Shown piece by piece: positions 12,365-63,642 of a DNA stretch of 64,000 nucleotides (position 1 is its first letter; the number at the start of each line of letters is the position of its first letter). The notes beneath the pieces were generated by a model, which had not been told where the DNA came from, searched no databases, and was given only the letters and a program-made list of their open reading frames with translations. The stretch is from positions 12,314,243 to 12,378,242 of the forward strand of contig OX419761.1 of NCBI GenBank assembly GCA_948567375.1. Reading direction: 5' to 3'. The translations under genes were made by a program, and so were the position numbers. The DNA is from Lunularia cruciata (taxonomy: Eukaryota; Streptophyta; Marchantiopsida; Lunulariales; Lunulariaceae).

Positions 12365-12820
12365 CTCGGTGATCGCCCTCCCCCCCAAAGACTTCTTAAA
12401 ATTTGAACCAACGAATCCCTTGCTGCAAAAGTCGATGAGACCCCCTGAAAATACACGCAGGAGAGTCACTCCCAATCTGAACTTGTTAACTCGAGGTGAA
12501 CTCGTGGGAGTCAGATTCTACCTTCTCCAGAAAAGGACAAGGTGTACAGTTAATATCAATGCTGTTAAGAGAGGTTCATCCGATGAACAATCGATACGTC
12601 TTTAGCAACAGTGGGAGGCTATAATGCTGACGAAACTTGTCCACGAGTAGTGTAGACAACTTCAAAGTCAAGTCCATAAAGGTCAGTGCCGTGTAGCTAA
12701 AGCTACTCCAAGAGAATACCAAGAATTGAAGCAGTTCCCAACATTCGCATCCATCCTTCGAGAAGTTGCAGACTCCTGGATAGTAAAAGATAAAAACTAC
12801 ATAAAACTTGTAAGTTTGAA

Positions 12821-12874
12821 CGATGACACATAGGATAACAAGAAGGACGGGAAGATCCCATCAAGCGGTGTAAG
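12821..12874 (-). mobile_element. Decayed LINE tail fragment
   Basis: About 54 bp align without large gaps to the 3' tail of the LINE at 58738. Shared blocks are GGGAAGATCCCATCAAGC (GGGAAGACCCCATCAAGC in the young copy) and AGGATAACAAGAAGGA (AGGAAAAACGAAGGA). The outer hairpin is not retained. The many substitutions indicate an old insertion. Confidence 0.65.
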
Positions 12875-15257
12875 TTTGGGATACACATAGTCAAATGTAG
12901 ACAAAGCGAAAGAGACATGCACATGGTGTCAATCACCAGCCATACCTTTAGTGTCAGGGGTGGTACCAAAGTTAGACTTGATGATGACTCCGGATGCGAC
13001 GAGTACCATCAACGACCAGCTTTTCATGCGGAGACCATGGAAACTGGGCTAGTTCACGTTCTATAAGATCTAGGAAACAACATAAAGTAGTTCGGAACGC
13101 AGTCTTGGTTACTGTATATCTTGGGCGATAGATACCGAGATTGAGGCCGAAGAAAGCACGAGATTCTCCGTACAAGAGGCCGAGGGAAGTGAAAGAAGAA
13201 TAAGGGTTCATTGCCCATCACATTACTACTGTGCGAGAGTTTCCCTGACGAGCGTGCTCCCAAAAGCGCTGCAGATGGGAACCTAGTGGTCCATCCCGGG
13301 TTCCATTCAAACAATTCGATCTTGTTGAAAGACAGTGACATTAGGATGCGATATTTAGGGGTATTGAATATTAGAGTATTGGATTTTAAGTGATATTCGA
13401 TCTCTATCCTGCAGTGATATAAGGATGAGATCACAATGGAAGAGTGAGCCGGTGGCAAGTAAGAAGTGCTCAAGCAGGCTGTGTCTGCTCCCCTGTGCCC
13501 CATACGCACTACCATTGCCACAGAAAGTCCAAGTGTAATGGCGGGTGTAATTCTGAAGTGGGAATCATCATAACCTAGTCATGATCTGAACCCCTTCATG
13601 ATCTTCATGCACTTTCTCAAGTCAGGGGTTGGACGCGTGGTTACTCTTCTGTAGCCCATCGTCATGATTTTCACTAATCATTAAGGCTTCATGATCTAGG
13701 GTGGGATAGCTTTCAAGTTGGCATTGATTTTGGTTGCTTTACACGAATAAGGCATCTCAGTTTTGTCAGATCCTTGTATTGGACACCGAAACTGGCATGA
13801 GCGAGTGCTCATCACCTTCTCGTCGCTGAAAGCTCAGCTCGACGCCCTTTATTGTGCTCCCGGGGATGATCTGTGAGGGCACGTAGGGGGCAGACGTCTT
13901 CGTATGGGTATATTGTCTATCAGCATCAACCAGGGCAAAGAGAATCTTCGACCGTGGTACATTTACATTTCTAAAGAATCCACAGCCACTGCTAGGATCA
14001 CTCCACTCCACCCTTACTGTTTCAATGGTATCAAGTATATACTTGCGGATAGAAGATCATCGGACACATCATTTCATTAGCATTGATTTTAGAGCGCGTC
14101 ACGAGGAGTTCCAATCATCAGGCGGTATGGGAATTGTAGACTTATCGACGAACACTGTATAATACTATCGATTGTGGTATATTATCGGTTCTCCCTGATT
14201 GGCACTCGGAGTTAAAGCTTCGCAACTTCAGTCCATTTACTTCGGTGGACACCACTGGAATCTCGTGGAGGTAAGCTTTGTCTCTTGAGATAAAACTAAA
14301 GAGAGATGTGCAACAGGTGAATTATTATCTCTGAATACACCGTGGCCACTCGATGCATCGACTCAACAGTTTAAGCGTGGAGATTCACAGCTACTTATGA
14401 GTGGAGACGTACAAGACCTACAAGGCGTGGATGTGGACAACTGGGAGAAAAATAGTCAGATACTTGAAACTTCTGCTCAGTTAAACGCATCGAGCGGCAA
14501 CTGTAACTACGAACTTGGGTGGGACAGGAAACCAGGCAGGAAACCAAAAGAGAACTTCCATAGACTAGCACTAAGTAGAGAAGAATTAATTAGTACAATT
14601 GGTAGTTCAGGTCATATTACAATAGACACAGGTGAAAACTGGAATGAGAGAAGACAAGACTCCGGGAGTCGACCCATGTCCCCACCTTGAAACCAAGGGA
14701 ATTACACTCAATGATGGAACAAGAGATACATGGTGTGGAGCCACACTTTTCGACAGTTATGCAAATGATGTGTACATATCTCAACTAACTACACTGGTAA
14801 CTTACACGTCCCGTCATTTCCACTCATGTTCTCAAGGTGAAAGGTGGACACTAGCATGTACAGAGGGTTCTAGCAACAAAGAACAAGTCTAGAATCTATC
14901 TCACCCATGCTGGACAAGCTAAAATTAGATCTAGAATCTATAACCACTTGTAGGCCTTCTACATCACTAATTGCTTACTCACATGATGCCTTTTCTCTTG
15001 CCGAAGTGCAACTAAGTCGGTTGGAATTGACTAACTAACTATCTGGAACAATTTGTGCAGTGTCTTCGTCTCACGAAACTGGTGGAAGTCACCATTCTGG
15101 GCAACTTTCTACGTACATCGCATCTAGGATTGTTCAAGCAAATCGGACAGTCAAACCCCATTGATCGTGTCCATTCTGCAATTAAAATATAAATTAAGAC
15201 TCTTGGTGATCATATTCTGTTCACAAACAAGCCGGTGAATTCCTTAAGAGAACTTCA
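12875..15257. other. Gene-free or unassigned stretch
   Basis: Two overlapping minus-strand frames occur at 13054-13521 (155 codons) and 12972-13211 (79 codons). Neither resembles a family I know, and they cannot both be real. A minus frame at 13766-14011 and a plus frame at 14397-14690 (97 codons, with an AT-hook-like RKPGRKPK) are also unassigned. None has clear splice partners. There may be an unrecognised gene here, but I cannot support one. Confidence 0.35.
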
Positions 15258-23216: not shown

Positions 23217-23818
23217 TAAGTAGAGAGTTGAATTCGTACCTCCTTGGCAGTGTAGTTTAATGGTTTCCCCACCTCGCAGGACCTTCGCAGCTTGCTACTG
23301 TCGCCTACTTTGTCAACAAATCTGATACTACTACATGAATTCAGTTAAGAGTTTGGTTCACAAGTTTTCGCCTTAGTTTGATAATCAGACGAACTCATAT
23401 ACAGGTGGGAACCAGAGAAGGACCGACAATGTAGGTTCCAGCTTGTCTAAAGTCGACCATGGGAGTGACTGTAGTCTGAGGAAGAAGTTGTGCTTTTTCT
23501 ACAACTCTTGCTTTCGGTCAACAAACAACAGATACTGCGGTGGCGGGGTGTTTACGAGATTTTATGACTTGCAATTGGTCATAGACAAATTGGTCAAGGG
23601 TCAGCATCAGTTTTAGGTTGAATATTCAACTCTCTGTGCACTGTTCGGACACTTAATCAAAGCGATGCTAGTATCTACACGTTGTTATCTCAGGTCATGA
23701 TCCTGTGCACTGCGTGGCTTGGCCTATTACTTTACTTCACTTTACTTCACACACATGCAGTGCAGAACGAGGGAATTGGGAGGAGAAGACAATTGAAGCT
23801 TTGTAAAGAAAAGTGGTA

Positions 23819-23990
23819 AAGAGGCGACCATATAGAACAAACGAGGTAGAACGGCGCTAGGTCCCAATAATATCAATATGAGAAATTTACCTTCCAGCAC
23901 CTAAGATATCCGATCTATGCAAGTCGCAAAGTCTACATACTACATACTACTGGAGTATCCAAAGAAGCATCACCTAGATTGCCCCATAAA
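23819..23990 (-). mobile_element. Decayed LINE 3' fragment
   Basis: Similar to the 3' end of the LINE at 58738: AGGCGACCATATAGAACAAA matches the terminal block, and CACCTAAGATATCCGATC with ATGCAAGTCGCA matches the adjacent 3' UTR. The part between the terminal block and the outer hairpin is deleted, and the hairpin itself is degraded (GGCGCTAGGTCCC). Substitution level indicates an old copy. Confidence 0.75.
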
Positions 23991-24316
23991 GTAAAGTAGA
24001 AAATGCACTGCAAAAGCATATGGGAGAGACCGGTAACTCGAAAGCAGCAGAAGGACATCGCCCCGAGGTCGTAGTATACGATTGTAGTAAGATATAGATA
24101 TACGCGTTTACTAGACCGAAGACTACGTTTTTGCAGGTCATAGGAGTGAGGTCAATTAGCATTAAGAGTACGTCATGGCAACTGTACATTAAGTCTGTGT
24201 CGTAACGTACGTTAAAAGATCGGAAAGAGAGAGATTCGTACTTGTGCCTTCGCAAATTCAACCTCAAGCAGCCTGCTCATAGTTAAAGCTATGACTTCGT
24301 TCAACCTTCGGACACA

Positions 24317-24482
24317 CATGCTATGCTTTAAGTTAAAATGGCTAACTGTCAATTACCTCCGGTGACGCCATGGTCTTACTCTTATTCTTACAACAGAAAC
24401 ATGCTATGCTTTAAGTTAAAATGGCTAACTGTCAATTACCTCCGGTGACGCCATGGTCTTACTCTTATTCTTACAACAGAAA
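24317..24482. repeat. Exact 83-bp tandem duplication
   Basis: Two head-to-tail copies of an 83-bp unit (24317-24399 and 24400-24482) with no difference seen. The unit has no long open frame and no similarity to the mobile elements in the window. Identity means a very recent event or an assembly artefact. Confidence 0.95.
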
Positions 24483-26392
24483 CTGTACTATCGTTGAAAC
24501 TGAGCACATACGAGTCTAATAGCCAGAAACTGAAAGATTGTATTTAGTCCAAGCTACCGGAGGATACTTCCGCGAGCTGCCTTTGTTTGAATATTATGAA
24601 GAGACGTACAGGAGATAGGTAATGGCACTTCTAATATGAGACGTCAAAAGACAAAAGTCTACCACAGGTATTCACATGTTTACAGATAGCAGGAAGGGCA
24701 GTCCACACAATGGAAGAGATACTTGTACGGAAGTTAAGATACACACTTCTAGAAAGTTCTCAACCACAGGAATCTCCCCAAGAAGACAGACTACAGCCTC
24801 CTCAGTTCTCCTGCAACAATATGCCTGTTTGACAAGTAGAGGGGAAGAAACAATGGACAATCTCTCCTTAAAAAGAGAAGGCTCTTCTTGGAACGCTCCT
24901 GAAACACCCACAGGAATTTTCTGAATCCTTCAATGTTCATGCCAAGTAGCTCACGAGAGCATGCTGAACTCTGGACCTCCGGGCCAGCTCACGAAAACAG
25001 AACCTTACTTCGACCTGGTCGCTGACTGTTGTGAATTGTGAGGTAAAGCTGAACTGGAAGTTCGGGACAAGAGCATAAACTTGAACGCTGCTTCAACACT
25101 ATCCACTCCTACGAAGTCTCCAGCCGAGAATATCATCGGTGGATTCCCTTAACTCCTGCCACGAATCGCAAGTACACAATTCTCGAAGCTTACTTCATCT
25201 TGGTTTGCTCACCGCGGAGACATTTGGGACTGCTTACACATCCCATCATTCGGGTCAGATTGTAGATTACCGGTGGCTCTTAGAGACACCTCAAGACACT
25301 ACCTCCATCCGACAGAATCTACAAGTACATACCGAGGAATGCCCCGCTATTCAGGCTACTGTACTGAAATTTACACGAGCAGAGTTATCAAGAATTATTC
25401 CCAGCTACAGACCTGCCATAGCGCCCTTGGGACAGCTCCGAAGGCTGATTGCACCTGCCATACACAGATAATCTCTCAAATGACGTCCACCGATAAAACT
25501 TCAGACAGGTTTTTGTCACTATGGAAACTTCAGGACACAGTACTGTAGTAGCTCTAGGGTAACTTGAAACTCTCCAACTTCCCACTCACCGAAAGATGCC
25601 TTGACAGAGAACACGATAACTACAATATATAATCGCGACAGAGAATAAATGACCCCCAGGCCCCAAGAAAAGGGAAATATGTGGGGATTCGGGGACAATA
25701 TGGACCACTGAGCTCATAACCACTTTGATGAAGGGCCAGATTCTCAAGAACCGTTGCAAACGACCTTAAGTGAAACATCCTGGAAATTCACTGGCGAATC
25801 CGTCTTACAAGAATCTCAAAAGTTGCTCCTTCCGTAACCCCTCGACAATATAAGACATCAGCACAGTGCACGATAGTGGTCAAGGACAAACGAAATCTCA
25901 AAGCTTCAGATCGAAAGCCGTAGAAAAAGAGAGTCCGCTCAAAATGTGGACAGAATGCTTTATTTCGACGTGTTCTGCTCCTCTTATGGCTAGTACAGAG
26001 GATGCACCAAGAAGACATCAGTCAGACCACGGATATTGTCTGTCGCAAGATGTATTGACGACAAACTGACAGATGATGTTGACGGCCAGCGACACAAGAT
26101 TTTGCCCTGTTCGAACTCTCAATTGAGTAAGCTCCACATGCTTTACTATGATGTGAGATGATAGCGGCACGCATACTTGCGTTGCATCACCAAGGGTAGT
26201 AGGAAGTGCACAATCCGGCAGGCGTAAGTATCCGTACCTCGCCCTGAAAACCTATCAATTTTCTTCAAGAACTCAGCTACCAATTTGATTGTGTCAAAAA
26301 TTCCACCTCACGTATTTTGGAAAGGTGCAGGTAATGTACAGGAAGGTTGTGAGCAGGCATGAGCCAACACAATACAACCTGTCGATCTCAGC

Positions 26393-33200: not shown

Positions 33201-33639
33201 TGTTGGATTGCTTGTGATTTGCGCCTGAATTAGACACAGATTTGCAAAGTACTGTGGATCTTAAGCTCACGTAGACGAAACAGTGACAGAGGTCAGTTTT
33301 CTCTCTGTAAGTCTTTTGTCTCTTAGTAGACAGAGTCTCATATTTGCTGATGGACTCTGTTTCTGTGGGACCGATAAAGTTAGGAGATTAGAATTAGGTT
33401 TCAGCAAGTGCAGGGAACTGGTTTTGAAGGCGGTGGACCGTGCTTCCAATCCCTTGTGAGCACCAGCTATGCTCTCTGTAACGAGAGCTTAGCTGGTGGA
33501 TGAGAATCTGAGCTAAATTTTGCAGAGTGGACTCAGCTGCAGAGAAAATTGTGGCTGGATATTTCTGACGTATGAAACAGTCAAAGAGACATTCCTTCTT
33601 TTCGCTTTGATCACTGAAGTTCTTGGTCGACGTTGAGCA
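30228..33639. other. Intergenic region, divergent PRMT3 and CorA promoters
   Basis: PRMT3 starts leftward and the CorA-like gene rightward, so this 3.4 kb holds both upstream regions. I see no coding region with family resemblance. The stretch from 33100 to 33639 is probably the 5' UTR and promoter of the CorA-like gene. A TATATATATA run at about 31768-31778 has no clear relation to either start. Confidence 0.45.
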
Positions 33640-35463
33640 ATGGCCGGGCGCCTGATCAAGCTGTCCAAGCTGAAAGCAGGCTTGCAACCAAGCGTCTATG
33701 TCGAGTACGGGCTGAATAGTCCAGAAGGAGGGAGAAGCAAAAGTCCATTCTCCGGGGTTACGAGTCGGTCTTACTTCTCTTTTCTCAGGGGCCATCGATG
33801 TGTACCTCCGCAGGAGAAGCCTAAGATCAAGCCTCCCATTATAAATACAAACCGGTTGAAATTTTTGGCATCTCTGGATAAATATGTTGATTTGTCCAAC
33901 TCGAGGTATTGGCCGAGGTCATGGCTGCAACCTCTTGGTGGAAATCTGCTACCAGAGATGAAGGATCATCCTAATCATGAAGCGTGGATTTGGGCGAAGC
34001 CTGGGCAGAAAAGTTTATCTTTAAGACGTCATGACCAGGAGCAACGCCCTTCGATCAGCTTGATTAGGAGGAACTACAAGAATGCGGATAAACCTTCAGC
34101 ATTGGATGGAGGCACAAAATACAGCGTGATAAGGGTTGACACAAATGGTGAACTGCAGCCGCTTGTGCTGAATTCATCCCAGCTGGGGTTGCATCCTCGA
34201 GATATAGATCTGGTTTCTAGCAGCTCATTTATCCCTCAGAGGGCCACAATAGCTGTTCGGAATGACCTGGTACTAGTGCGCATGGAGAATGTGAGGGCAA
34301 TTGTCTGCAAGGATCATGTCCTGCTGTTTGATGCCCGTCACCCACGGACAAATAAAACTTTAGCCTCGTCTCGGTCACCAGGTGTTAACAACTCTTCTGA
34401 TATTCATCGAGCTAGAGATGCTTTTGCCAAATCTTTGTCAGAAGAAGCCATGCAGAAGCCTTCTTCGCTAGTGGATCCCATGCCATTTCATCTCCGGATG
34501 CTGGAATGTCTGCTGGAGGAGACGAGTAACTTTTTCCATCAGAAAGTAGACAGACTGAAGCTTGTGGTAGAGCGAATGCTGGAGGAACTGACGGACGATG
34601 TGAGCATGGGTGGGTTGCAGAGGATGCTACCTTTGAGGCGAGCAGTTACTGAAGTAGAGCATGACATACGAGATGCACACGAGGCAATGGATCAGGTGTT
34701 AAGGAGTGATGATACTTTATTAGCCCTGTCCTTGTGCAAGCCGTTGAGGAATCCTGATTGTTCTCAGAATGGAGAAGAAGATCGTACCAAGTCATCCGCT
34801 GAGAGCGAAGAGCATCAACATCTTCGGCAGGCAGCTGCAGACATGCTACTCACGTACCAGAGAGAGGTAGACGATGCTGGCGGTGTGCTGGAGGAGCTCA
34901 GGAAAGGCATGGAAGCAGCCCAGGAGATCTGGGAGCTGGGTCTAGACACAACTCGCAATAGAATAATTCGCATGAATCTATACATCAGTATTTCTACTCT
35001 TTCGATAAGCTTGGCGACCTTGCCAGCGGCATTCTTTGGGATGAATCTGGTCAGTGGATTTGAAGAACATCCAAATTTGTTTTACTGGGTAGTAGCAGGT
35101 GCAACGGCTACGCCTCTTCTACTATGTACCGGGGTTTTGGTGGGTTTCCGTTTGTGGCCCAAGGTAATCGACAAGCGGCGGGCTCAGGATCTTGCTGGTC
35201 TACGTGATCTGCTCCAGCATCTCGATAGCATCGATGATATAGTTCAATCTGTTGCTCGGGAAGTGGCTGGTAAATCACTAACCAGGCAGGAGTTTCAGGA
35301 TGTGTTACAATCACATCCATCGTCTCGTTTCATGCGGCAGAAAGAGCTTGACCTCATTTTCAAAATGTTCGACACGAATCGGAACGGTCTTTTAGAGGTA
35401 GATGAATGGACGTCAGAGTCGTCTAAAGACATTGATTCTTCTCCTGGCCTCACGGGAAGGTAA
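33640..35463 (+). CDS. CorA/MRS2-type Mg2+ transporter with C-terminal EF-hand
   Basis: A 607-residue protein in one exon. The first 60 residues are basic and Ser-rich with few acids, suggesting an organelle (probably mitochondrial) presequence. MRS2 marks follow: RDIDLVSSSSFIPQ (188-200), a VLVRMENVRAIVCKDHVLLFD-like sheet at about 211-231, PFHLRMLECLLEE (282-294) and a long helical coiled region to about 440. The pore motif GMN is at 467-469 at the end of helix 1 (about 446-466); helix 2 spans about 482-504. This is the CorA topology, in which five subunits form a Mg2+ pore. Unusually, a C-terminal extension carries an EF-hand loop at 578-589 (DTNRNGLLEVDE) with all main ligand positions filled. 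Ordinary plant MRS2 proteins end soon after helix 2. Lack of introns is also unlike the neighbouring spliced genes. Ca2+ control of Mg2+ flux is an inference. Confidence 0.88.
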   Translation: MAGRLIKLSKLKAGLQPSVYVEYGLNSPEGGRSKSPFSGVTSRSYFSFLRGHRCVPPQEKPKIKPPIINTNRLKFLASLDKYVDLSNSRYWPRSWLQPLGGNLLPEMKDHPNHEAWIWAKPGQKSLSLRRHDQEQRPSISLIRRNYKNADKPSALDGGTKYSVIRVDTNGELQPLVLNSSQLGLHPRDIDLVSSSSFIPQRATIAVRNDLVLVRMENVRAIVCKDHVLLFDARHPRTNKTLASSRSPGVNNSSDIHRARDAFAKSLSEEAMQKPSSLVDPMPFHLRMLECLLEETSNFFHQKVDRLKLVVERMLEELTDDVSMGGLQRMLPLRRAVTEVEHDIRDAHEAMDQVLRSDDTLLALSLCKPLRNPDCSQNGEEDRTKSSAESEEHQHLRQAAADMLLTYQREVDDAGGVLEELRKGMEAAQEIWELGLDTTRNRIIRMNLYISISTLSISLATLPAAFFGMNLVSGFEEHPNLFYWVVAGATATPLLLCTGVLVGFRLWPKVIDKRRAQDLAGLRDLLQHLDSIDDIVQSVAREVAGKSLTRQEFQDVLQSHPSSRFMRQKELDLIFKMFDTNRNGLLEVDEWTSESSKDIDSSPGLTGR

Positions 35464-35940: not shown

Positions 35941-36292
35941 CCGAGACCTAGAAAATCTCCTTGTCATGGATACGATTTGCTAATGTCTCATGGAAGTTGT
36001 GGCAACAAAGCAGCAACAATGTACGATTTGTATGGGTATAGACTTGCAGAAACTTCTCTCACATTCAGGTGCCCCGAAGGTATTACGCAGTTCTGAAGCA
36101 GTATCTAAAGGAAATCTGCAGCTCCCAGAGATCCCGGTTGAGTCTAAAGGAGTCACTAGTATCCAAGCGAGGAAGTAATGAAACTTGCAACGGGGTTACC
36201 TAGTTCGTATTCGTATTCGTTATACGAGCTGAACTAAGTCGCTCTCCCTTATCCATTACAGAGCAAATGCTACACTCTTTTCCGTCACAAGC

Positions 36293-36379
36293 AGGATGCG
36301 TCTTCCCATCCTTTTCTCTACACGGTCGTCCTTTCTCTTCCCATCCTTCTTGTTTGTTATCCTATGTGTGTCGCTTTGC
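36293..36379 (+). mobile_element. Two LINE tails in tandem
   Basis: 36293-36337 reads GTCTTCCCATCC...CACGGTCGTCCTTTCTC, matching the LINE 3' end. It runs directly into a second partial copy, TCTTCCCATCCTTCTTGTTT...TATCC...TGTGTCGC, to about 36379. The second copy resembles the variant tails at 12821 and 47476, which share CCTTCTTG before the terminal block. Both are in plus sense and lack the outer hairpin. Confidence 0.7.
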
Positions 36380-40238: not shown

Positions 40239-40640
40239 GTGGTGTTGAGCACCATCACCCAAGAAAGATTCTTTGGGGGCAGGCACCTTGGATTCAGACT
40301 TAGAAAAAGTGCACACTTGGTGCTCCAACAAATGCAAATTGGTTGGAGTGCCGTACATTGGCTTCTCAACTATGACATGAGGAAAGCTTTTGATAACATT
40401 AACCACCAGATAGGACAAGGATCAACATGTCACCCATCCATGCAACTAATCTAAGGGTGGAGCTCATTCATATTTCACCAATCCATTTATGTGATCCAAG
40501 GGTGGAACTCTCACTTTGAAGAGATCTTCTTTGCTATTTAATAAAGACACACTGCTCCTTTGGAGCATTGGAGTATTGAGGGCTCAAGCCTTGTGTTTCT
40601 CTTGGGGGTTGTCCTATCCTCAAAACATTGTAGATTGGTT
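40239..40640 (+). other. Foreign insert with possible group II-type RT remnant
   Basis: A segment of about 500 bp (roughly 40140-40640) interrupts the protease region of copia fossil 2. In one plus frame it reads GFRLRKSAHLVLQQM, then WLLNYDMRKAFDNINH, and further on SSLLFN. Order and wording resemble the early reverse transcriptase motifs of group II intron maturases (GFRPGRS..., D-I-x-K-A/C-F-D-N-I-N-H, LSPLLFN). The piece could be a mitochondrial DNA insertion or a fragment of another reverse transcriptase. It is short and the assignment is tentative. Confidence 0.35.
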
Positions 40641-42573
40641 TCATACATACAAAGCAATTAATAGAAGATCAATTTTGATGGAGAATGATATGGCTTGTAA
40701 AGCCATTTGGATTAGTACAATACATATCAAGATGTTTTATGGTACTATGAGAACTCTCATTGATGTGCGGTATGTCCTTGAGTTACAAAAGAACCTAATT
40801 TTTTTAGGTATGTTGGATTTGAATGGTTGGAAGTGGGGGCAAAAAATGGCATGCTGAAATTACGAAAGAAGTTTTGGTGGTGATGACAAACTATAAGGTA
40901 GGAAACCTATACAAGTTGATCTAAGATATAGTTACAGGTGGAACAACAATTGTAACTCTTAAAGACAAAGATCCTAAATATCTAACACATCTATGGCACC
41001 TACGCTCAGGCTATATGAGCAAATGAGGTGTAAGTGAGTTGTCCAAGCTACAATTACTTAGAGTCAAAAATTGTAAGTTAAAATTTTAGGAGTTAGCTTT
41101 TCTACAAGAACTCATTGGAAAAAGGGAATTTTAGAGTACTTGCATTTTGATGTTTGGAGATCGGCACCTATAGCTTCAAAATCAAGAGCTTTGTACTTTG
41201 TATCCTTGATAGATGACTATTCTAGAAGAGTATGGACGTATGCCATGAAGCAAAAATCTGAGGATCTTGTGATCTTCAAACAATGGAAGACAATGATAGA
41301 GAGACAAACTAGAAGGAGAGTGAAGTATTTACATTTTGATAATGGTGGAAAATGAATATCAAAGGAGTTTGATCAGTTTTGCAAGAAAAAATGAATAGTA
41401 AATCAATTTACTATTCCTAGTACCCCTCAGCAAAACAACACAACATAACAGATTAAGCAAACACTCTTGGAGAAAGCTTGGAGTATGCTGAGAAATGTTG
41501 GTTTGGAGAAGAGCTTCTAGGCAAAATTTATAACACCACATGTTATCTGGTAAATATATCTTTGTCTATTGTTTTTGAGTGCAAGACGCCAATGGAGAAA
41601 TGTACAAGGCAGCTTGTTAATTATTCTTCATTGAGAATGTTTGAATGTAATGCTTAGGTGCATGTTCAACCAAAACAAAGGTCAAAATTAGATTCTAAAT
41701 CTAAGAAATGCCTATTCTTAGGTTATGAGACAAATTGGAAAGGTTTTAGATTGTGGGATCCTCCCAAATGAAGCTTAGTTGTGTGTAAAGATGTAATATT
41801 TGACTAGAGTAGTATGATGGAGAAAATTGCTATATGTGATTTAGGCAAAAATCAAATTATGTCAAATATAGTTCAAGTAAAAATTGAGGAGAATGAACAC
41901 GAAGAAATCTCTTCTCCCATAAATTTTCAAGGTGATCCACTTGATGAGAGACAATAAGAAGGTGTAGCAGAATGTAAGTATCTTGTTAGAGAGAGAAGAC
42001 CACCAAAGAGATATGAGCATTCTTTGGTAGGTAATGGTTCTCTCACTAAAAATGATGAACCTTCTACACTTGAGGAAGCATGCAAGATTTAGAGAGCCAA
42101 AGATGGCACAATACAATAAAAGTGGAGATGAAGTCCCTTATTCAAAACCAAACTTGGAGACTTGAGAAACTGCCTATAGATAAGAAGGCAATTGGTTGTA
42201 GATTATTTATCAAAAGAATGAAGGACCTTCAAAAATAGGTGGATTTAGATACAAAGCAAGGCTTGTAGAAAAATGCTATAGATGGCATCAACTTCAATGA
42301 GATATTCTCTTTAGTGGTAAAGATCTCTCCAATTTATATACAATTGGCATTAGTTACTTTGCATAACCTAGAGTTACAACAATTGGATGTCACTATTGCA
42401 TCTCTACGTGGAGAATTGCAAGAAGAGATTACATGCATCAGCCAAAGGGCTTTGTGGTACCAAGGAAGGAGAACCTAGTTTGCAAGTTATAGAAATCATT
42501 ATATGGATTGAAGTAGAGTCCAAGATTTTGGTACAAGAAGTTTGATACTTTCATGGTAAGGCAAGGCTTTAAG

Positions 42574-44145: not shown

Positions 44146-46148
44146 CATTCTTTAAAACAAAGACTACATATCATAAATATTTAATCTAGATAAAAATCCT
44201 CTATGTAATTAGAATGATCTTAATCCATATTAGAAGATACAAGAAACATATATATCATATAATTTAATAAAATATCAAAACCTTCATCATTAGATTTTTA
44301 TGATATCATATTATATATTTATATGATATATTATTTTATTGAGAATATATTTCATCATATAGAACAAAGAGAAAAACATTGAAATTCAAACATCAATATC
44401 AACAATGGAAAAGTGAAAATAATAACATAATAGTTTACTAATCAATTAAGGAGTTTTCAAATGCTCTTTGTAAATAGGAATAATGTTTGTTAGCCTCTTC
44501 AAGTGAACTTTAAGAATGTTTGCCCTCAAGTGATAGTTCCTCCAACATGCTCGATAGCCTCCTCACCACTAATTCCACTAATCTCTCCGTAATCTTGGAC
44601 AGTTTCTCCTTTACTGTTGATATTAAGGTTGCTGATTTCCAAGTTTTTACAATGATGAGATGTAACCAAGTTTCCCCAACGAAACGACGGCGAATAATCT
44701 CGATTTACCCAAAAGTGATGAAATCTCTTGGTTGGTTTGAATAAAATTTTACTCTTTATTCTAACACTAAATGTTTTAATTCCATCCTCCCATGGTATGA
44801 TCATTTGATTAGATTGTGGAGTTAGACGTGGTACACTAGGTTTACTTGAATGAAACTGAATAACAAAATGAGGTTTTAGCTCTATATGGGACCATCCAAA
44901 CTGTTTATTAGTTACCTATTTGGTTATTTGTTATCTATTTATCCCATATTATTGGTTTTTTGCCAACACAACTTTAGAATATTCTAACCCCACTTCCAAA
45001 AATGGACCATTCCTCTTTGCGGAAAATTCTCTCTTTTTCTCTAAAAGGTTTGTGGCAAACACATAGGATATGGAACAAACACATCATCCGATTACTCAAA
45101 TCAAAGGTTGATACATCTTTGTCTTGATAACTTCCATTCAGTACTCTCATTACTATTCTATTCATAGATCCTATGTTTTGGATCAAACACGGTATTTAAG
45201 TGCTCACATCCAAAACACATCATCTAATTGTTCAAATTCAAAGTGGACATATCTTGTCTTGTTATCTTGCCTTGAGTACTCTCGGTATTCTTCTATTTGT
45301 AGATGAGAACCATATTTGTTGCCCAATACTAATTGCAAATTGGATCTATATTTATTATCCATTTAAACTCAATTGTAGGAATTCCGCACTATTTGTTCTT
45401 CATTCTTCCAAACATTCGCACTAACCTATTTTTCTTTTTTGCATATTTTCAATTATAAGCTGAGTATTGCAATACTATAGCTCTAAAACTGTTCTAATTC
45501 ATTCCTGTCTCCACACCATAGTAGCTTACATTAAGTGAGAGTTTGATGAACAGACTTAAATAGGATATAATTAGTGGCTTTGCCAACGTCCCTTTATCCC
45601 TTATGCACCATATGCAGAAAAATTAATCATGTAACTAATCAATATCAAGTAATCATGAACCTACAATCATTGAATTTTTATCAATATCAATTCTATATCA
45701 TCACAATTAAAACCTAGGATGAGTATATGTGGTTGTTTTGGATCATTAGATGATAACTTCAATATTATCAAATAGTGTCTTCGGTATAGACATGTAGACA
45801 TATGTGTACCTCGTGGATTTTATTACCGTTCGCTATATATCTTGTACTTGTCATTCTCCAATGAGATGTTACATTTGTCCAATGTAGTTCCCCTTACGGA
45901 AATGCCTCGAGTCATATATAAGGATCTGTTGGCCTCATACTCCTCAATAGCAATAACACAGTCATGCTTGCTCGCGGCCATGCTTGTGCTGCTTAACAAA
46001 GTTCTATCTTCTCCATGCTTTAGATTTAGCGTAACTCAATCGTTTCTTAGATGTCAAACGGGTATGGTCCCCAGTCCCATAACAAAGTTCAATCTTCCAC
46101 GTGCTTTAGACTTTGCATAACTTGTTCGTTTTCTCTAACTTGTGAGAA
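44146..46148. other. AT-rich gene-free region with degenerate repeats
   Basis: No coding region with family resemblance. It holds a tandem duplication at 45079-45350 and, at its right end, two units of a degenerate repeat at about 45995-46148 that continues after the LINE copy. A minus frame at 44526-44804 (92 codons) is not recognised. Confidence 0.45.
45079..45350. repeat. Imperfect tandem duplication, 136-bp period
   Basis: The two copies share ACACATCATC, CTTGTCTTG, AGTACTCTC and TTCTATT in order, offset by 136 bp (starts at 45079 and 45215). By eye they agree at about three quarters of positions, so the event is old. Confidence 0.75.
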
Positions 46149-47010
46149 GTCGACCGCGTAGGAAAAACGAAAGATGGGAAGACCCCATCAAGCCTTACAA
46201 GGGAGAGAGAAAAAGGTATCATGGGGCTAAGCCCCAATAGAGTCTATATGAGAAATCTACCCACCTGCACCTAAGATATCTGAGCTATGCAAGTCGTACT
46301 GTCTATGCACAACTGGAGCATCCGAAGAAACATCAACTAATATGATTGCTCTCCTATGGATTGCACCAGCCACTGCACTCTATAGAGCAATGGACACACG
46401 CTGTCTAAAATATGCTCCAAAGTATGAGAGTGAGAGTGGTACCCTTAACGCCTAACATGAAAAGCTTTCTTGCACTCCCTGATAAATGTTTCAAATGCAG
46501 TGTCCATCACTCCATATAACTCTAAGGCTAGAGGAACAAAGAGGTGACCTCGCTGCATGGCCCTATACTTAGGAGACCTTGAGACCTACTGCTGCACTCG
46601 CCGCCCATCCAAGGGGATGGGTAATCATTCTCTCCAAAATTGTATCCCGCATAAGGTCCATTACCATGACATCCGCTACTGTCACTGGATAATCTCGGAC
46701 CAAGTATAAGTCTGCCCTGACATGTGTCGGTTGCAAAGTATACGAATGTTCCCTCTAAGCCAAGTATTCACTCTCTCTCGCGCCATAGCAAACATTATGT
46801 CCCTAATTGCATCATGGGTAACTATCCTCTTTCCACCAAAAGAACACCCGGTCATGTGGACTCGCTACTGCATCTAGTGTAGAAACTGGTATGTTCCACT
46901 GTCCCTTAGTTCACTAGACTTCCTGCACTTCGGTTTCTCTGATGTCAAATAGGCATGTTCCACAGGCCCGTACTGCACTAGACTTCCTGCTCTTAGCTTT
47001 TTAAAGCATG
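45995..47010. repeat. Degenerate tandem array split by a LINE copy
   Basis: Units of about 80-90 bp share GATGTCAAA, GG(T/C)ATG(G/T)TCC and CTTTAGA/CACTAGACTTCCTGC-type blocks. Two units lie before 46148 and about two after 46887. The LINE fragment 46149-46886 sits inside a unit: the sequence before it and after it together follow the pattern of the neighbouring units. Confidence 0.55.
46149..46886 (-). mobile_element. 5'-truncated LINE copy (3' UTR and endonuclease end)
   Basis: Collinear with 58740 to about 59480 of the young LINE, in the same orientation. It includes the tail, the GGGGCTAAGCCCC hairpin, the 3' UTR, the restriction-like endonuclease region and the end of the CCHC knuckle. 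Similarity stops at CATCTAGTGTAGAA. Several coding positions differ and the frame is no longer open. No clear target duplication is seen at its ends, although it sits cleanly inside a repeat unit. Confidence 0.88.
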
Positions 47011-47475: not shown

Positions 47476-47612
47476 CATGTTTCTCTTACCTCTCCGATAC
47501 TATTGGGGCTTACTACTACCCCTATTTTAACCTCTTGTGTTTTATCCTTGGGAAGGATGGGGTCTTCCCATCCTTCTTGATATCCGGCGCGGTGGGCTTT
47601 CCTCATTTTTGC
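47476..47612 (+). mobile_element. Decayed LINE tail, plus sense
   Basis: Reads through ATTGGGGCTTA, GATGGGGTCTTCCCATCC and GCGCGGTGGGCTTTCC, the same order as in the LINE tail. The outer hairpin is disrupted. It faces the copy at 46149, which first suggested terminal inverted repeats. Confidence 0.75.
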
Positions 47613-49258
47613 TACCTCTCTATGTAACAGAAGGTTACAACGAACTTTACTGCAATACTCACAAATATCAGAGTTGGAGCCCGAGCAGAAGTGGGTATGG
47701 ATTGGTGATATAACGAACTTACTGCATTTACTCTTCAATGTCAGAGTCGTAGTCCGGTAAGACGTGGGTATGGAATGGGTTATTCATAACGGATTATGTA
47801 TGCCATTACTCAATATGGGTTGTCTGCAAGGTAAGTTTGAAAGAGCTTGTGAAGAAAGACCGAAATGAAAGCAAGCCAGTTGAGCGTCACCTCATGAGGG
47901 AGTCCTCTGGTTTCTCATCTCGTTTTCATGTTCGTTGTATGAATGCATGCTCGAGGCATCTATCTGCAAATTTGGCAGCTCATGAACTACTACCGTCACT
48001 TCATAAATTCTGATAGCCTGGTGTTATACCGTAGTGAGAATCCAAATTGGTTTATGACCTAATTTTCGATCGACCGTGCGTCACTATGACATAGCACTCG
48101 CTCTGACGAACTGGGTGGAACTCGCGCGAGACACCTCGATCGAAGGCTTAAGGCTGGGGAAAACTATGGGTGCATGTGCGCACAGCGTTGATGTTGCTTG
48201 TTTCTGATGGAATTTTCCTTAGCTATTGACTGCCGATTACAGACAATCTCAGTTGCTCCAAATGCATTTTACAGAAGAGATGAATAGATCATGAATAGTA
48301 GTAGGGCGAGAGTAGAGCCACGGAAACTGTGTTTTCACAACCACACCACAACTGAAACCGTACGTTTCTGTTTGCTCAACCCCTTCAAATTGAGTGAACA
48401 GAACAGCGTCAGAATCTCGAAATGACTAGAGTTACGGCGTAAAAGAGGACAGGTATCCACTTCACTGATCGTAAGGTCTCTGAAGCACAAAGGCAGCTCC
48501 TTTTGGAGTGGTATCGGCTGCATCTACGAGAAAATTAGAAGTTTTTGTGGATCCAGCCTATGCCATTTGAACATAAGCTGTACGTACTCCCTTTCATTTC
48601 CAATTTGGATTTCAACAGCCTGCTTTCATGACATGTGTTGCCGGGTTTCTTAGCATTAGGGATGCTCTCCTATTTGGATTTGTCTCAGTTTCTATTGTCT
48701 TTCACCTCCTCGAGGCTTGACATTCCTAGAAATCCACTTTCGTTGTAAATTTCACACTGTAGAATGCGTCGAGGAACAGCGGCAGTGCTCGGCAAGCTCA
48801 ATTGGCCGTCCGACCCAGTACTTTCCGCGTCTTTATCTACTGCTCAAGGATCCTCGTGAACATGTTTTACCGGTCAGATAATCGAGGTCCTAAGCTTGCG
48901 CCGGATTCTTGATAGGTATCACTATACCCTCAGGATATATCATTATTTCTTTGCGTAAGCTTGCAAGTTGTCTTTCTCTGTAGATTCAACCTAAGAATCA
49001 ATGGATTGTTGAACACGTTGGACTGCAGTTTCCCACTGTCTGGAGATGGGCATCCCGCATAATTCCCATGGCGTACGGCCACGTCTACCCTACTACCTCA
49101 ATTCTGTTTCGCGTGGAGTTCCATTTGTTGCGTGCTATTGAAGAATTCACTGCCAGTGTAGAATTTCGGAGGGATTTCGAGTTCTGGTTGTGATCGCTGC
49201 TGAAAGGCCTGGACTTTGACGAGGAAGCGAACGTCTTCAGTTTGGAGCCCCTTGAAAC
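47613..49258. other. Gene-free stretch and F-box gene upstream region
   Basis: Starts with two to three degenerate units of about 75 bp (47638-47800) sharing AACGAACTT, CTGCA, ATCAGAGT/GTCAGAGT and GTGGGTATGGA. After 47800 there is no recognised coding region. The last few hundred bases before 49259 should hold the F-box promoter and 5' UTR. Confidence 0.45.
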
Positions 49259-57724: not shown

Positions 57725-58726
57725 TAAATTGGGTCGTAGTCATTGTATGAGGGGTTTATTCACTTTGTGAGGTGCTCATCTAACAACTAATGATATTTTT
57801 CTGCCTTCATTCTCAAATTTTTACCTTGATACATAGTAAAATTACTAAACTAATAGAAAAAAGGATTTTTCTCCAAGGAAGTCAAGGTAGGTTACTACAT
57901 ATCCCCTCAAATCCCAATTAGATTATATAGAAAAGAAAAATACTTTATATATAGTTGTGAGCAATCCTTGATTTTTGGAATAAGAAGATGAACAATGAAA
58001 TAATTCCAAATCTTTTTTGTATGTTTTGCTCAATCCTATATATCATTTTGATCAAAACCAAAAGAACTTTTGTGGAATTTTGGTTGATTCTTTAATGACT
58101 GAATTAATCTTGACATAAAAGAAAGTAGGAGTTCATATTATGCTGATAAAAACTCCTATGAGAGAAAAATAATGGACTAAGTTAGAGAATTTGAAATAGT
58201 ATGAGAGTAATTTTCAATTGAATAAAGATATGAAAACTAAGAAATTTGGAAAAACCATCATACCATCACTCTTGTATTTAAAAAGTTGTTACAAACACAA
58301 AAATCCTGAATACATTTATACTTTTTACAAAACTTTTCATATCCTTTAATTTGAATATGTATACAATTTAAAAACGAAAACAAAATGTGAACTATTTTTT
58401 TCTCAACTATACTCTAGTGTACACTCAAAATCCTTTAACCACCTCTCTCTCTCCCTCTCAAGTTCTAGACTACAGTCTAGACTGTACACAAAAAACATCC
58501 TTTAAACTCCTCTTTCATTCACTCAAGTAGATTGTGTCTAACGAACGAGATTAATTATGACATCGGACACAGAAGATCATGATCTCAAATCCCCACCCGG
58601 TGAGTACGAATGGGGAGAGATAGACTAAACCAGCACTCCATCACTGCTACTTGGCTGACCTCCAAGTTTATCCAGGTTCACTAAACCGACCTCCAAGCGC
58701 CATGCGTCCACCTTCGCATCTTACTT
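57725..58726. other. Gene-free AT-rich stretch
   Basis: No coding region. A CT-rich run (CTCTCTCTCTCCCTCTC) lies at about 58444-58460. Base composition becomes more balanced from about 58550, just before the LINE insertion site. Confidence 0.5.
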
Positions 58727-58737
58727 GATAAGTGAGG

Positions 58738-61405
58738 AAAAAAGGCGACCGCGTAGGAAAAATGAAGGATGGGAAGACCCCATCAAGCCGTACAAGGGAG
58801 AGACAAAAAAGGTAACATGGGGCTAAGCCCCAATAGAGTCTGTATGAGAAATCTGCCCTACCGCACCTAAGATATCCGAGCTATGCAAGTCGTACGGTCT
58901 ACACACAACTGGAGCATCCGAAGAAACATCACCTAATGTGATTGCTCTCCTATGGATTGCACCAGCCACTGCCCTCTATAGAGCAATGGATACACGCTGT
59001 CTAAAGTAAGCTACAAAGTATGAGAGTGAGAGTGGTACCCCCTGCCGCCTAACATGATAAGCCCTCGCGCACTCCTTGACAAATGTGTCAAATGCCGTGT
59101 CCATCGCTCCATATAACTCCAAGGCTAGAGGAACAAAGAGGTGACATCGCTGCATGCCCCTGTACTTGGAGACCTTGCGACCTGCTGCTGCACTCGCCGC
59201 CCATCCAGGGGGATGGGTAATCACTCCCTCCGAAACTGTATCTCGCGTAGGGTCCGTCACCACGACATCCGCTACTGTCACCTGATCATCTCGGACCAAG
59301 TATAAGTCTGCCCTGACACATGTCGTCTGCAACGCATACGAACGCTCCTTCCAAGCCAAGTATCCACTCTCTCATGCCATAGCAAACACTATGTCTCTAA
59401 TGGCATCATGGGTAGCTATCCTCTGTCCTCCAAAAGGACACCGTGTCATGTGGACCGCCGCTGCATCTAGTGTAGAACCACACTCACAAGTGAGTAGTGA
59501 AGATGCAGATGGGTGGACCAAACCTAGGCGAAACCTCATCGCTGTAGAGAAAGTAGCCGGTGCGAGTCGGAAAGCCCTAATGCATGGTCGAGCTAGGATC
59601 CACGAGCCTGCACCCTTGCCGGAGCAAGAGCGTAGACGTGCTCTAGTAGCCTGAGGAATGGACGAGTCAACTAAGAGAGAATGTAGCGTATGCTCACACT
59701 GTCGCTCCATCAAGGAAGACTGTAGACCTCTAGTCCAATCTGACGATAGTGAAGCAAACGGTGGAAAACCCTCTCGTGCTCGTGAAGATAGACTATCTCT
59801 CGTCTGCCGCAATAACACCTGGAGAGAAAAGGATCCTCCCTCCACCTCTGTCACATAAGTCTCCAAAACCGGCCTATCAGCAACCACAAAACGAGATGCA
59901 AGTAGGGGTGCCGAGAGAGCCCAACTACCCAAAAATGCTATAGGTGCCATCTCCTCCATAGAAAGCAAGCCAACCCCACCACATGAGATCGGTAGAGCCG
60001 TCTGTCTACGTGCCAAATCCCCTGTCACACACTCAAAAGTCCCTGGTCCAATAATATCACCAAAGACTCCCATAATCCTCCTATCAAATGCTCTCAGACG
60101 TGATAGGAAGGACGATGAGGGGGGAACTGTACGGATGAGGTAGGATGGTCGACGAGCAATACTGGAAGAGAGTATACCAAATGCCACCTGCGGATCTCCT
60201 AGTAATGGAAGGTCATCCACATGGAGAACATCCTTTGCAAGAGCAGCGTCCAAGAAGCGTGTGACAAAATCCTCCGATCCTACTGGCACTCCAAGAACAC
60301 GAAGTCCCTGTGTGGATGTGATACACCCCTCTGGAAGCTCAAGGTGGGGAGGGATACCTAAAGGGGACCATGCCCTACACTTTGACACCTTGACTCTCAA
60401 GCCTACTAGATGTAGCTCGGTAGTCAAGTAGTCAAAGGCCTGCCTAATCTGATCTACAGGGCCTACGATGTGTGTATCATCTGCCAAGGATGGAAATACA
60501 CAACCTTGCATGGCCAAAGTAGTAGACAGGAGAGCTCTAAAGTGAGCCATGGCAAATAAGGGCCCCCCCAAAGGATCTCCCTGACGTGTACCAACAGCTG
60601 ACTCCAAGACGGTGACTCCCTCCTGTGAACCACCATGCTGGTAGTAAAGGGAAGCAGGAGAGCCATAAAAAGACCGCACAAAAGGAATGAGACTCGCCAA
60701 GGATCCACTAGCCTCCCTAAGCTCTCTAAAGATGGATGCACGTGAGACGCTATTAAAAGCGTTCTCAACGTCCACCTGTAGGACGACCCACTCTGGATGG
60801 ATATCTAGGAGTGCTCTAATGCCTAGAGATATAGCCTCACATCCTCCAGGTGTAGCTACTCCAAACTGATGTGGACTAAGGTGCTGTCGAAAGTGAGAAT
60901 GATGCTGAAGGACAATGGTACGACTGACCAAACGCAAAAAGATCTCTCCAATAGCGATCGGTCTAATGCCTCCCGTGTCCTTCTCGATCGCGAGAAGTCG
61001 ACTAGCACCTAAGACCCGACTAACAGACATAGGAATATCTCCTCTCGCTACTGCTGCAGCCACCTGAAACAACTCGGTAAAACCACTAGAAGGATCATCT
61101 GCCTGGAAGCAATCTCTAAGGTGCTCATAAACCATCCCTGACAAGCCTCCTGAGGAAAGGCGAGGGGCATTGCACAATGCTTGTGCAAATAGCGACCTAT
61201 CAAGACATAAAGGCTGCTCAGGCTGATAATCTAAGACCTCTAGTGGTAGTCCCTCTACTGCTATAGGATGCAATGAGCGTAGGGAAGAGATGGTCTCATC
61301 AGTAGGACTCGCTATAGACAGAGGGTGTAGCGCTCGTGCTGCTCTACTAAACTCTCCCGCCTGACCCAATGTCCTACATCGTCGTAATCGAGTGGAAGTG
61401 ATCGA
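58738..61405 (-). mobile_element. Young RLE-type LINE, 5'-truncated, with 11-bp target duplication
   Basis: A 2.67-kb non-LTR retrotransposon read on the minus strand, flanked by the exact duplication GATAAGTGAGG (58727-58737 and 61406-61416). Its 5' end cuts into coding sequence just upstream of the reverse transcriptase, as expected of a 5'-truncated insertion. The 3' UTR (58975-58738) has no poly-A. It contains the hairpins GGGGCTTAGCCCC and GATGGGGTCTTCCCATC and ends GCGGTCGCCTTTTTTCC. The endonuclease lies after the reverse transcriptase, which places it with the early-branching, restriction-like-endonuclease LINEs (R2, R4, NeSL, Utopia and others) and not with the L1 or RTE types usual in plants. 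The exact clade needs a phylogeny. Confidence 0.87.
58976..61405 (-). pseudogene. LINE reverse transcriptase-CCHC-endonuclease ORF, one stop
   Basis: An open frame of about 810 codons interrupted once, by TGA at 59374-59372. Counting from codon 1 at 61369 (the frame is open further upstream): reverse transcriptase motif A with VDVENAFNSVSR (D200), motif B RQGDPLGGPLF (262-272), motif C LADDTHIVG (D297, D298) and motif E LGVPVG. A CCHC knuckle C628-x-C630-x9-H640-x3-C644 is followed by THDAIRD. After the stop comes the restriction-like endonuclease: WKERS, RADLYLV, VADVVVTDP and GRKVSKYRG, where R-x-D, a second D and K-x2-KY match the family's catalytic pattern. Frame and sequence continue across the stop, and a CGA arginine codon there would fit MARESGY. 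Without the missing 5' part the copy is not expected to be autonomous. Confidence 0.85.
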
Positions 61406-61737
61406 GATAAGTGAGGTAGTTTAGTAGTATGTAATATGGTGACGATTGCTAATATCTTGCGTCTTATTGTCCAGCGCTGTCTACGTGGCGTTTGTGGATA
61501 AGATCAATGAATTAAGTCGAATTGCCAAATATAGGCCTATTAAGTTATTCTGTGGACCACGTGTGTATACGAACCATATACGGCGGCTGTTTTTAGTAAC
61601 CATGTATGGAAGGGGTCAGAACCGACGCTCACTATGCCATTGTTCACTGGTGGTTTATATAATGTTTAATTATATTTGTACGTTCTCATTTCAGTCCACT
61701 CAGCCCAAAAATGTGGCAAGAGATTTAATAGTTTTCA

Positions 61738-61790
61738 TTGTTATGCTTGATGGGGTCTTCCCATCCTTCGTGTTCTCTATGCCTTTTTCT
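61738..61790 (+). mobile_element. LINE tail fragment, plus sense
   Basis: Contains CTTGATGGGGTCTTCCCATC followed by CTTCGTG and a T-rich end; the GCGGTCGCC block is degraded to ATGCC. It lacks the outer hairpin. Confidence 0.7.
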
Positions 61791-61966
61791 TTTTTTGTTT
61801 TCTTTATTATCGGCATGAAAGTCACGTATCTAAAATGTGATGTGGAATGTGTAGGCACCATTTTCGTTGAGTTTCAAACATAAGATAAGGTATCCATTCA
61901 TCTTGTCCAGAGATAGACTTAACCGTCTCATATTTGGCACTTCGACTTAGTCGACACCAACGTCGT

Positions 61967-62036
61967 GGGGCTTAGCCCCATGTTACCTTTTTTCCTCTCC
62001 CCATCCTTCGTTTTTCCTACGCGGTCGCCTTTTTTC
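61967..62036 (+). mobile_element. LINE tail copy starting at the outer hairpin
   Basis: About 70 bp from GGGGCTTAGCCCC to GCGGTCGCCTTTTTTCC, almost identical to the tail of the young LINE except for an internal deletion of about 25 bp that removes one arm of the inner hairpin. It starts exactly at the outer hairpin. Confidence 0.85.
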
Positions 62037-63325
62037 CGCAAAAGTTGACAAAAACCTTTACAAAATACTTGAAGAAGAACGTTAGTCGCGTCTCGTCGAA
62101 ACTGATCATTGATTTCACAAACTTGTCGATGGTTATTAAAATGCTCTATATAATGCATATATCTCAACCTAAATGCTTTATATGTCGGTTCAATTTAAAT
62201 GCTTAACCGACAATAAAGAACAGAGGTTACTAGCACGACGTTGCGGGGACGTACTCTCTCCGTGCCAACTATAGCTAACTGATTCCACGTAGGTGCCAAC
62301 TATTACTCAGGGTGCCACGTCCGGAGGTCGGTTACGTGGAAAGGCCAAAATATTCTATCACCTAAGTCTTCTCTGTATCTTGGCCTGATCACATCCATAT
62401 CTGTAAAAGGTTAAGGTCTCCTCCCATGCCCATAAGAGAGTCCACGTATCATCTCATTTTAATAAACACGTTAAAGTATTTCAAACCGTAAGCCTTGGGC
62501 CCTAACTAGGGTCCAATAGTCTGCTAAATTAAATATCAGGTCTACTAGTTCACTTAGTGAGAATGGAAGAAATGAGAAGCTAGATTTGGTAGGTTATAAG
62601 TTTTATTATGTATATAAACAGATGATTTCAAGAATAACGAGTAAAACTTCACCTTGAATGAGATTAATATTCGTTCTAACCGTTTTCCAGTATTAACTTA
62701 GCTCGGTCATGGCCATTACGTTGACCAAGTCGTGTGGGACTGAGACGGCAATAACGTATTTCGTGGAAGTATTTGTTTGATTTAGCCTCCAAATTTAACA
62801 CAGTAGAAAATTATTTTGTTTTCATGTGACTCGCTAGATATTCTTCTGAATGTGGAGTGTCAAACCCATGCCTTGGAAAATATTTCAGATGGTGTTACAA
62901 AATGGGTTCGGTAAAGAATTCGGTACAAAATACAGATTAAAGTTTCCAAGATCGTGTTGGATTGTGTGTCGAGGAATCTTCAGTATCCTGAAACAGGTCC
63001 TTCTCGGGACTAAATCAATGTCCGGGGGACCCCATCCAGTGCTAAGGTCGAATTTTTATACTTGTATGAAAATTGGTCTCATTTGTCAACTTTTCTAGGG
63101 AATGCCGTTTCTTCACCCGGGTTCTATGGAAACAAGTGCGAAGGAAACATGGCTCAGACAGCAGTAGTGAATTCCATCGGGCCAAGAGAAAAGCTATATT
63201 CTCTCGATTCCCACTCTTTCGGAGTGGTATTCCCCACATTGTGACTGGGACCCAGGCGCCGGGGGATTCTCACCAGACCTGAGCCGGAACGTGTACAAGC
63301 GGGTTACTGCAGTGTTTTGAGAATC
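62037..63325. other. Gene-free stretch
   Basis: No coding region with family resemblance. Short repeats of GTGCCAACTAT occur at about 62264-62300. Several frames of 60-82 codons at 62850-63282 overlap each other on both strands and are not supported. Confidence 0.45.
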
Positions 63326-63430
63326 GAGAAAGGGCGACCGCGTAGAAAACACGAAGGATGGGAAGACCCCATAAAGCCGTACAAGGGAGAGAAAAGAAGA
63401 AGGTAGAATGGGGCTAAGGCCCTTAGCCCC
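63326..63430 (-). mobile_element. SINE-like tail-only insertion with 10-bp target duplication
   Basis: A 105-bp insertion flanked by TTTGAGAATC on both sides (63316-63325 and 63431-63440). In LINE sense it starts with an extended outer hairpin (GGGGCTAAG...CTTAGCCCC type), continues through the inner hairpin region and ends GCGGTCGCCCTTTCTC. The direct repeats show it arrived as a separate unit, by a LINE-type mechanism. Confidence 0.85.
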
Positions 63431-63544
63431 TTTGAGAATCCAAGAAATGTCCTTTAAAGTTTGCACAAGGGGTTTCAGAAATAGTTTTGATGGATGTATA
63501 GGGGATAAATACAAAAATTTGTAACTATTTTTAGTATTTCGTAA

Positions 63545-63642
63545 TGAACTCTGTAAGGAGATGAGGTGCTAATAAATGAACATCCTGTAAAATAATCTAC
63601 AGGGTGTTCATTTATTAGCACCTCATCTCCTTACAGAGTTCA
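63545..63642. repeat. Near-perfect 45-bp inverted repeat (foldback)
   Basis: Arms 63545-63589 and 63598-63642 pair at 44 of 45 positions around an 8-bp spacer. The left arm begins TGAACTCTGTAAGGAG. Beyond the arms the symmetry continues imperfectly, with CTATTTTTAG on the left against CTAAAAATAATT on the right after a gap of about 9 bp. Such a structure fits a small foldback/MITE insertion or the stem of an inverted-repeat transcript. Confidence 0.93.

Follow-up and report, generated by a model that had tools for sequence, protein, structure and literature searches.

The window analysed here is the whole 64-kb stretch of DNA, and the genes neighbouring the element make a plant nuclear genome a plausible setting, with a green plant, be it a land plant or a streptophyte alga, as the likely host. 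Pfam matches in the window included an MRS2-like magnesium transporter (E 4.1e-24), PRMT pieces (PRMT_C, 1.7e-13; an ANM3 zinc finger below its cut-off) and an F-box protein (1.1e-7) with a KIB1-4 match below cut-off. The MRS2-like match lies in a 608-codon open frame on the plus strand (33637–35463), in which C-terminal EF-hand matches were detected below cut-off. At Rfam gathering scores, a U1 snRNA and a tRNA (tRNA-Thr) were identified, with no U2 and no rRNA in the window. The U1 snRNA gene (10401–10557, minus strand, 114.7 bits) has no plant snRNA upstream element in front of it, and gives no help to the land-plant reading. A Pol_BBD match (40495–40857, plus strand, E 4.7e-14) probably marks a fragment of a retrotransposon polyprotein, and a perfect tandem duplication with an 83-bp unit was observed at 24316–24483. 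By eye, a long near-perfect inverted repeat (CTGTAAGGAGATGAGGTGCTAATAAATGAAC...) was seen at about 63547–63640, possibly a small MITE-like element.

The feature under study is a LINE on the minus strand, hereafter copy A, with the following parts:

58738–61405, minus strand: copy A, a 5'-truncated LINE, probably of RLE type, 2668 bp
59372–61405, minus strand: open frame of copy A up to and including the internal stop, with reverse transcriptase (RT), linker and knuckle
60284–60988, minus strand: reverse transcriptase, Pfam RVT_1 match, residues 140–374 of the protein
59438–59488, minus strand: CCHC-like knuckle CECGSTLDAAAVHMTRC, residues 640–656, aligned with R2
59372–59374, minus strand: single internal stop, TGA, codon 678, between the knuckle and the RLE residues
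59162–59314, minus strand: probable restriction-like endonuclease (RLE) core RAD-x12-D-...-KVSKY, residues 698–748
58738–58832, minus strand: conserved 3' tail, ending CGCGGTCGCCTTTTTT, no poly(A)
61406–61416, no strand: target duplication (TSD) of copy A, 5' side, CCTCACTTATC in element sense
58727–58737, no strand: TSD of copy A, 3' side

The frame of copy A runs from 61405 to 58979, with its terminal stop at 58976–58978, and its 809 codons contain one internal TGA and are read with no frameshift, as an earlier note on this DNA had described in claiming a single frame with a single stop. The exact 11-bp target duplication claimed in that note was also found, CCTCACTTATC bracketing copy A on both sides (58727–58737 and 61406–61416); at least 11 common nt were seen in 8 of 19968 trials with random 35-nt pairs from the window. 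The description of the element as nearly intact was mistaken: the first in-frame ATG is codon 91, indicating that the N-terminal part is missing and the front end has been lost. From where the match falls in R2Bm, an R2-like protein would here be short of some 300 residues at its N-terminus, and no DNA-binding domain was found in what is left of copy A.

In the protein before the internal stop, Pfam detected RVT_1 (E 5.8e-15); no match was obtained after the stop, and with the stop read through RVT_1 was again all that Pfam matched in the truncated protein at E values up to 10. Motifs A (VDVENAF, 211), B (RQGDPLGG, 274), C (LADDTH, 307) and E (LGVPV, 371) were located, in agreement with the claim that these four were present, and the enzyme is a reverse transcriptase of the non-LTR type. 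In a single-sequence search of the PDB with this RT, the best matches were three R2 sequences (E 2.3e-7, 2.5e-6 and 3.2e-6), the only ones at E<1e-5, followed by bacterial RTs of the group II type (E 0.005 and worse) and a chance match to one carbohydrate-binding chain (E 0.4). LINE-1 and R2Bm were both absent from the matches of this search up to E 10, and because R2Bm, an undoubted RLE LINE, was missed just like LINE-1, the contrast between R2 and L1 that the RT provides is modest. Both surface only with a profile containing an R2 row, which is uninformative about the window RT. The identity between the RT of copy A and the R2 proteins was 25–27%, and in a six-sequence tree, which included no L1 or RTE sequence, the three R2 proteins formed a cluster, with 74% support, that excluded the window RT.

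The C-terminal part of the protein carries a knuckle and the residues of a restriction-like endonuclease, in the domain order of RLE LINEs as described in passages of PMC5678591 and PMC10499050. The knuckle, CECGSTLDAAAVHMTRC, reads C-x1-C-x9-H-x3-C; the CCHC knuckle claimed earlier therefore stands in its C/C/H/C composition, which fits RLE LINEs, but not in its spacing, which is off the consensus CX2-3CX7-8HX4C given in a passage of PMC5678591. Of 200000 shuffles made from the C-terminal segment, 1114 matched a loose CCHC pattern; the pattern RAD-x12-D...KxxKY, drawn up after sight of the sequence, was matched by 1 of 200000. Local alignment of the C-terminus to the R2 protein 9nl3 gave a score of 65 (shuffle mean 24.8), which none of 5000 shuffles reached, and alignment to R2Bm a score of 49 (shuffle mean 25.3), reached by 2 of 5000; with the knuckle removed, these counts became 0 and 39 of 5000, respectively. 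In the 9nl3 alignment, VRAD, VADV and KVSKY of copy A pair with YKPD, VVDV and KVRKY, so that copy A has a C-terminal RLE with D..D..K, in which AD stands in place of the expected PD and 13 additional residues precede KxxKY. R2Bm has KPD, VDV and KRNKY in the same order, and its alignment with copy A stops before the lysines. This collinearity with the R2 knuckle and RLE upholds the restriction-like endonuclease that the earlier note had claimed. PDB searches with the RLE region alone returned no R2: one query gave no match up to E 10 and the other glutaminases only (best E 0.75). AlphaFold predictions from single sequences reached a mean pLDDT of 37.5 (809 aa) and 33.4 (174 aa), both too low for use.

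The 3' tail of copy A ends in a pyrimidine-rich stretch and has neither the poly(A) nor the short repeat of an L1 or RTE tail. A blastn search in the window identified seven further copies or fragments carrying this tail, of 50–738 bp; these, together with a possible ninth, are as follows:

46147–46884, minus strand: copy E, 738 bp, truncated and decayed, RLE and 3' tail, 88.5% identical to A (blastn), no TSD at its ends
63326–63430, minus strand: copy D, 105 bp, TSD GATTCTCAAA at 63316–63325 and 63431–63440
47495–47612, plus strand: copy F, 118 bp, TSD TACCTCTC at 47487–47494 and 47613–47620
12819–12868, minus strand: copy H, 50 bp, TSD CAAACTTACA at 12809–12818 and 12869–12878
23815–23986, minus strand: copy G, about 172 bp, possible TSD with 10 of 11 bases alike at 23804–23814 and 23987–23997
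61966–62040, plus strand: copy C, tail copy with an internal deletion, no TSD found
61745–61795, plus strand: copy B, tail fragment, no TSD at its ends
36271–36336, plus strand: possible ninth tail fragment, nhmmer E 3e-4

A profile built from the eight tails found all eight again, plus the weak ninth (E 3e-4), and gave nothing at E<=10 against the reversed window. At 36271–36375, two small tail-like pieces stand in tandem (CTTCCCATCC twice), perhaps a rearranged ninth copy. The tail contains a hairpin, GATGGG/CCCATC, which A, E, B and F have in full; it is kept with a wobble pair in H, one pair short in D and absent from C and G, which is conservation without covariation. Compared with shuffles, the tails of A and E folded no better (z -0.41 and 0.51), and those of D and F folded better (z -2.69 and -2.59).

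Exact duplications flank four of the eight copies (A, 11 bp; D, 10 bp; H, 10 bp; F, 8 bp). Among the same random pairs, at least 10 shared nt were found in 19 of 19968 trials and at least 8 in 294 of 19968. With copy A left out, because its ends had been set with its duplication in view, the chance that two or more of the seven remaining copies would show a duplication of at least 10 nt is P about 2e-5. Exact bases shared in the boundary windows numbered 6 for B, 4 for C, 5 for E and 6 for G; the possible duplication of G, with its 10 of 11 bases, came from a wider search. The wider search also gave an 8-mer for B and a 12-mer with one mismatch for E, both of which lie away from the ends and were not counted as TSDs. 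The start points of the four short copies flanked by duplications differ (lengths 50, 105, 118 and 172 bp), as expected from 5' truncation during target-primed reverse transcription, and the duplicated targets of A, D, F, H and G are unlike one another, indicating a family without R2-type site specificity. Unlike duplications around copies that share a tail are what target-primed reverse transcription leaves behind when it has no site specificity. In copy D, GGGGCTAAG-GGC-CTTAGCCCC lies right after the TSD (63410–63430) and forms a perfect 9-bp palindrome, which may be a fold-back made as reverse transcription ended.

The earlier note had also described copy A as recently moved, and this is supported relative to copy E. 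Copy A has one stop and no frameshift, whereas in its alignment with E 80 of 735 sites differ and 5 internal gaps occur (7 gap events when the two at the ends of the aligned stretch are included). In the coding part, 61 of 500 sites differ, spread as 18, 22 and 21 over the codon positions (chi-square P 0.80), and in the non-coding part 19 of 235. The even spread over codon positions, taken with the frameshift-free frame of A, is the pattern that mostly neutral decay of E would leave between the two copies. About 3.9% of single substitutions in the frame of copy A create a stop, and one stop therefore fits roughly 25 substitutions, or about 1%, a rough figure taken from one event. In relative terms, these results support copy A as younger than the other long copy.

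Taken together, these observations suggest that copy A is a 5'-truncated LINE without site specificity, whose protein ends in a reverse transcriptase, a zinc knuckle and a restriction-like endonuclease (probability about 0.8). The RLE type assigned in the earlier note is supported by the C-terminal collinearity with R2, by R2 proteins as the best PDB matches and by the tail without poly(A). With the front end absent from copy A, its protein sequence would place it as far as the RLE class with R2-like affinity. The alternative closest to this reading is an element of the Dualen/RandI type, also inserted by target priming, that lost an N-terminal apurinic endonuclease (APE) by truncation and kept the C-terminal RLE. 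The missing N-terminus is compatible with such a loss: Dualen encodes both APE and RLE, as stated in a passage of PMC4640811, and excerpts report RandI from green algae, namely Chlamydomonas (PMC3747384), and Dualen from relatives of Chlamydomonas (PMC8226300), the nearest green-lineage case to the host. We nevertheless consider this identity unlikely, though not negligibly so. Dualen/RandI is counted among the RNase H-bearing clades in PMC4640811, and no RNase H was matched by Pfam up to E 10 in the read-through, truncated protein of copy A. Between the ADD motif and the first knuckle Cys lie about 332 residues, compared with about 307 in R2Bm by the chain positions of 8gh6 (the R2Bm knuckle is numbered differently, 863–883, in an excerpt of PMC5678591), and the (ATT)n or (CTATTT)n tails listed for RandI in PMC3747384 are unlike the tail found here.

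An ordinary plant L1 or RTE element whose C-terminus merely resembles an RLE, a SINE family and a DNA transposon with inverted repeats were considered and rejected. L1 and RTE are the only LINEs named for land plants in the relevant part of PMC9033089, RVT_1 does not discriminate, and R2Bm and LINE-1 were equally missed by the window RT alone; this reading is very improbable, as the RLE alignment beats shuffles and the best PDB matches are R2 proteins. The tail points the same way, in that among 233 flowering-plant L1 families 224 have an (A)n end and 9 have neither (A)n nor a short repeat, and 7 of 7 RTE families end in other repeats, by the counts in the portion of PMC3747384 that deals with them. 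The short tail copies could be read as a SINE family, in which case the LINE itself would remain of the RLE type; among the seven other copies, six are indeed under about 200 bp, but the four flanked by duplications start at different points of the tail, with no common 5' head seen, and copy E extends into coding sequence, which makes this quite improbable. Hardly credible is a terminal-inverted-repeat DNA transposon of about 58736–62042 with a captured RT gene, even though the tail of A and copy C do form inverted arms (45 nt at 93%, 28 nt at 100%). The 11-bp duplication flanks A alone, the other exact repeats of at least 9 nt from 58700–58759 that recur in 61000–63500 are pieces of the D tail only, and the tail stands alone at D, F and H, each with its own duplications.

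On the reading of copy A as an RLE LINE without site specificity, the working of the family can be proposed by analogy with R2. An intact sister element, presumably elsewhere in the genome, would make the protein, whose C-terminal RLE would nick one DNA strand. The freed 3' end would then serve as primer, with reverse transcription starting in the conserved 3' tail of the RNA, and synthesis would often halt early, leaving copies of 50–2668 bp with a common 3' end. Cleavage of the second strand about 8–11 bp away would give rise to the target duplications.

Relatives were sought in other collections. In viral contigs, the protein, 52-aa fragment and alignment queries gave 1, 23 and 190 pattern stretches, none of which proved to be a relative by tblastn, and a motif-B DNA pattern gave none. 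No match to copy A was found by tblastn in the plasmid collection. In genome contigs, the motif-B pattern gave 13 stretches, all bacterial or archaeal, with a best tblastn E of 0.043 over 19 residues.

RLE LINEs are known mainly from animals, protists and green algae. In open-access literature, no title or opening of an abstract among the matches listed reported an RLE LINE in land plants, which is weak evidence of absence, and a review of the transposable elements of land plants names no LINEs other than L1 and RTE in the relevant section (PMC9033089). The view that an RLE LINE is new to plants is not contradicted by these results. We tentatively propose, at slightly less than even odds, that streptophytes, possibly land plants, carry an undescribed and recently active clade of RLE LINEs without site specificity and with a pyrimidine-rich tail lacking poly(A), abundant in the sense that eight copies or fragments lie in 64 kb. 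If true, such a clade would break the rule that land plants have no LINEs but L1 and RTE. A plant with an RLE LINE would either have kept it from early green ancestors or have gained it by horizontal transfer, and the spread of the element across plant genomes would separate the two. It would also provide, from a plant, an R2-like enzyme that by analogy nicks DNA and copies RNA into it at target sites unlike one another. The window probably holds, in what is likely to be a plant genome, a recently active LINE of the RLE type, with an ordinary mechanism and an unexpected host.

Plant L1 and RTE LINEs have an N-terminal APE and no RLE. Copy A shares with them the LINE structure, 5' truncation and target duplications, and differs in having neither the (A)n nor the repeat tails with which most of their families end in the part of PMC3747384 cited above. 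Utopia, like the NeSL clade, belongs with copy A to the RLE class; in an excerpt of PMC4640811 it is recorded from Amoebozoa, SAR and Opisthokonta, three supergroups that do not include Archaeplastida, and linked to U2 genes, and a passage of PMC5348765 deals with Utopia of oomycetes. Unlike Utopia as described there, copy A has no U2 match in the window. Dualen/RandI of green algae shares the green lineage and the presence of an RLE, and differs, on the passages cited, in RNase H and in its 3' tail. Copy A also resembles R2 (Bombyx R2Bm, 8gh6; zebra finch R2Tg, 9dou; R2 proteins 9nl2 and 9nl3), which has the same order of RT, linker, knuckle and RLE, a D..D..KxxKY core that in 9nl3 aligns with that of copy A, and the target-primed insertion that copy A probably used. 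R2 proteins stand apart from the RT of copy A in the small tree and lack the 13 extra residues before KxxKY (9nl3), and R2 inserts at one site in 28S rDNA, whereas the targets of the copy A family are unlike each other and the window has no rRNA match.
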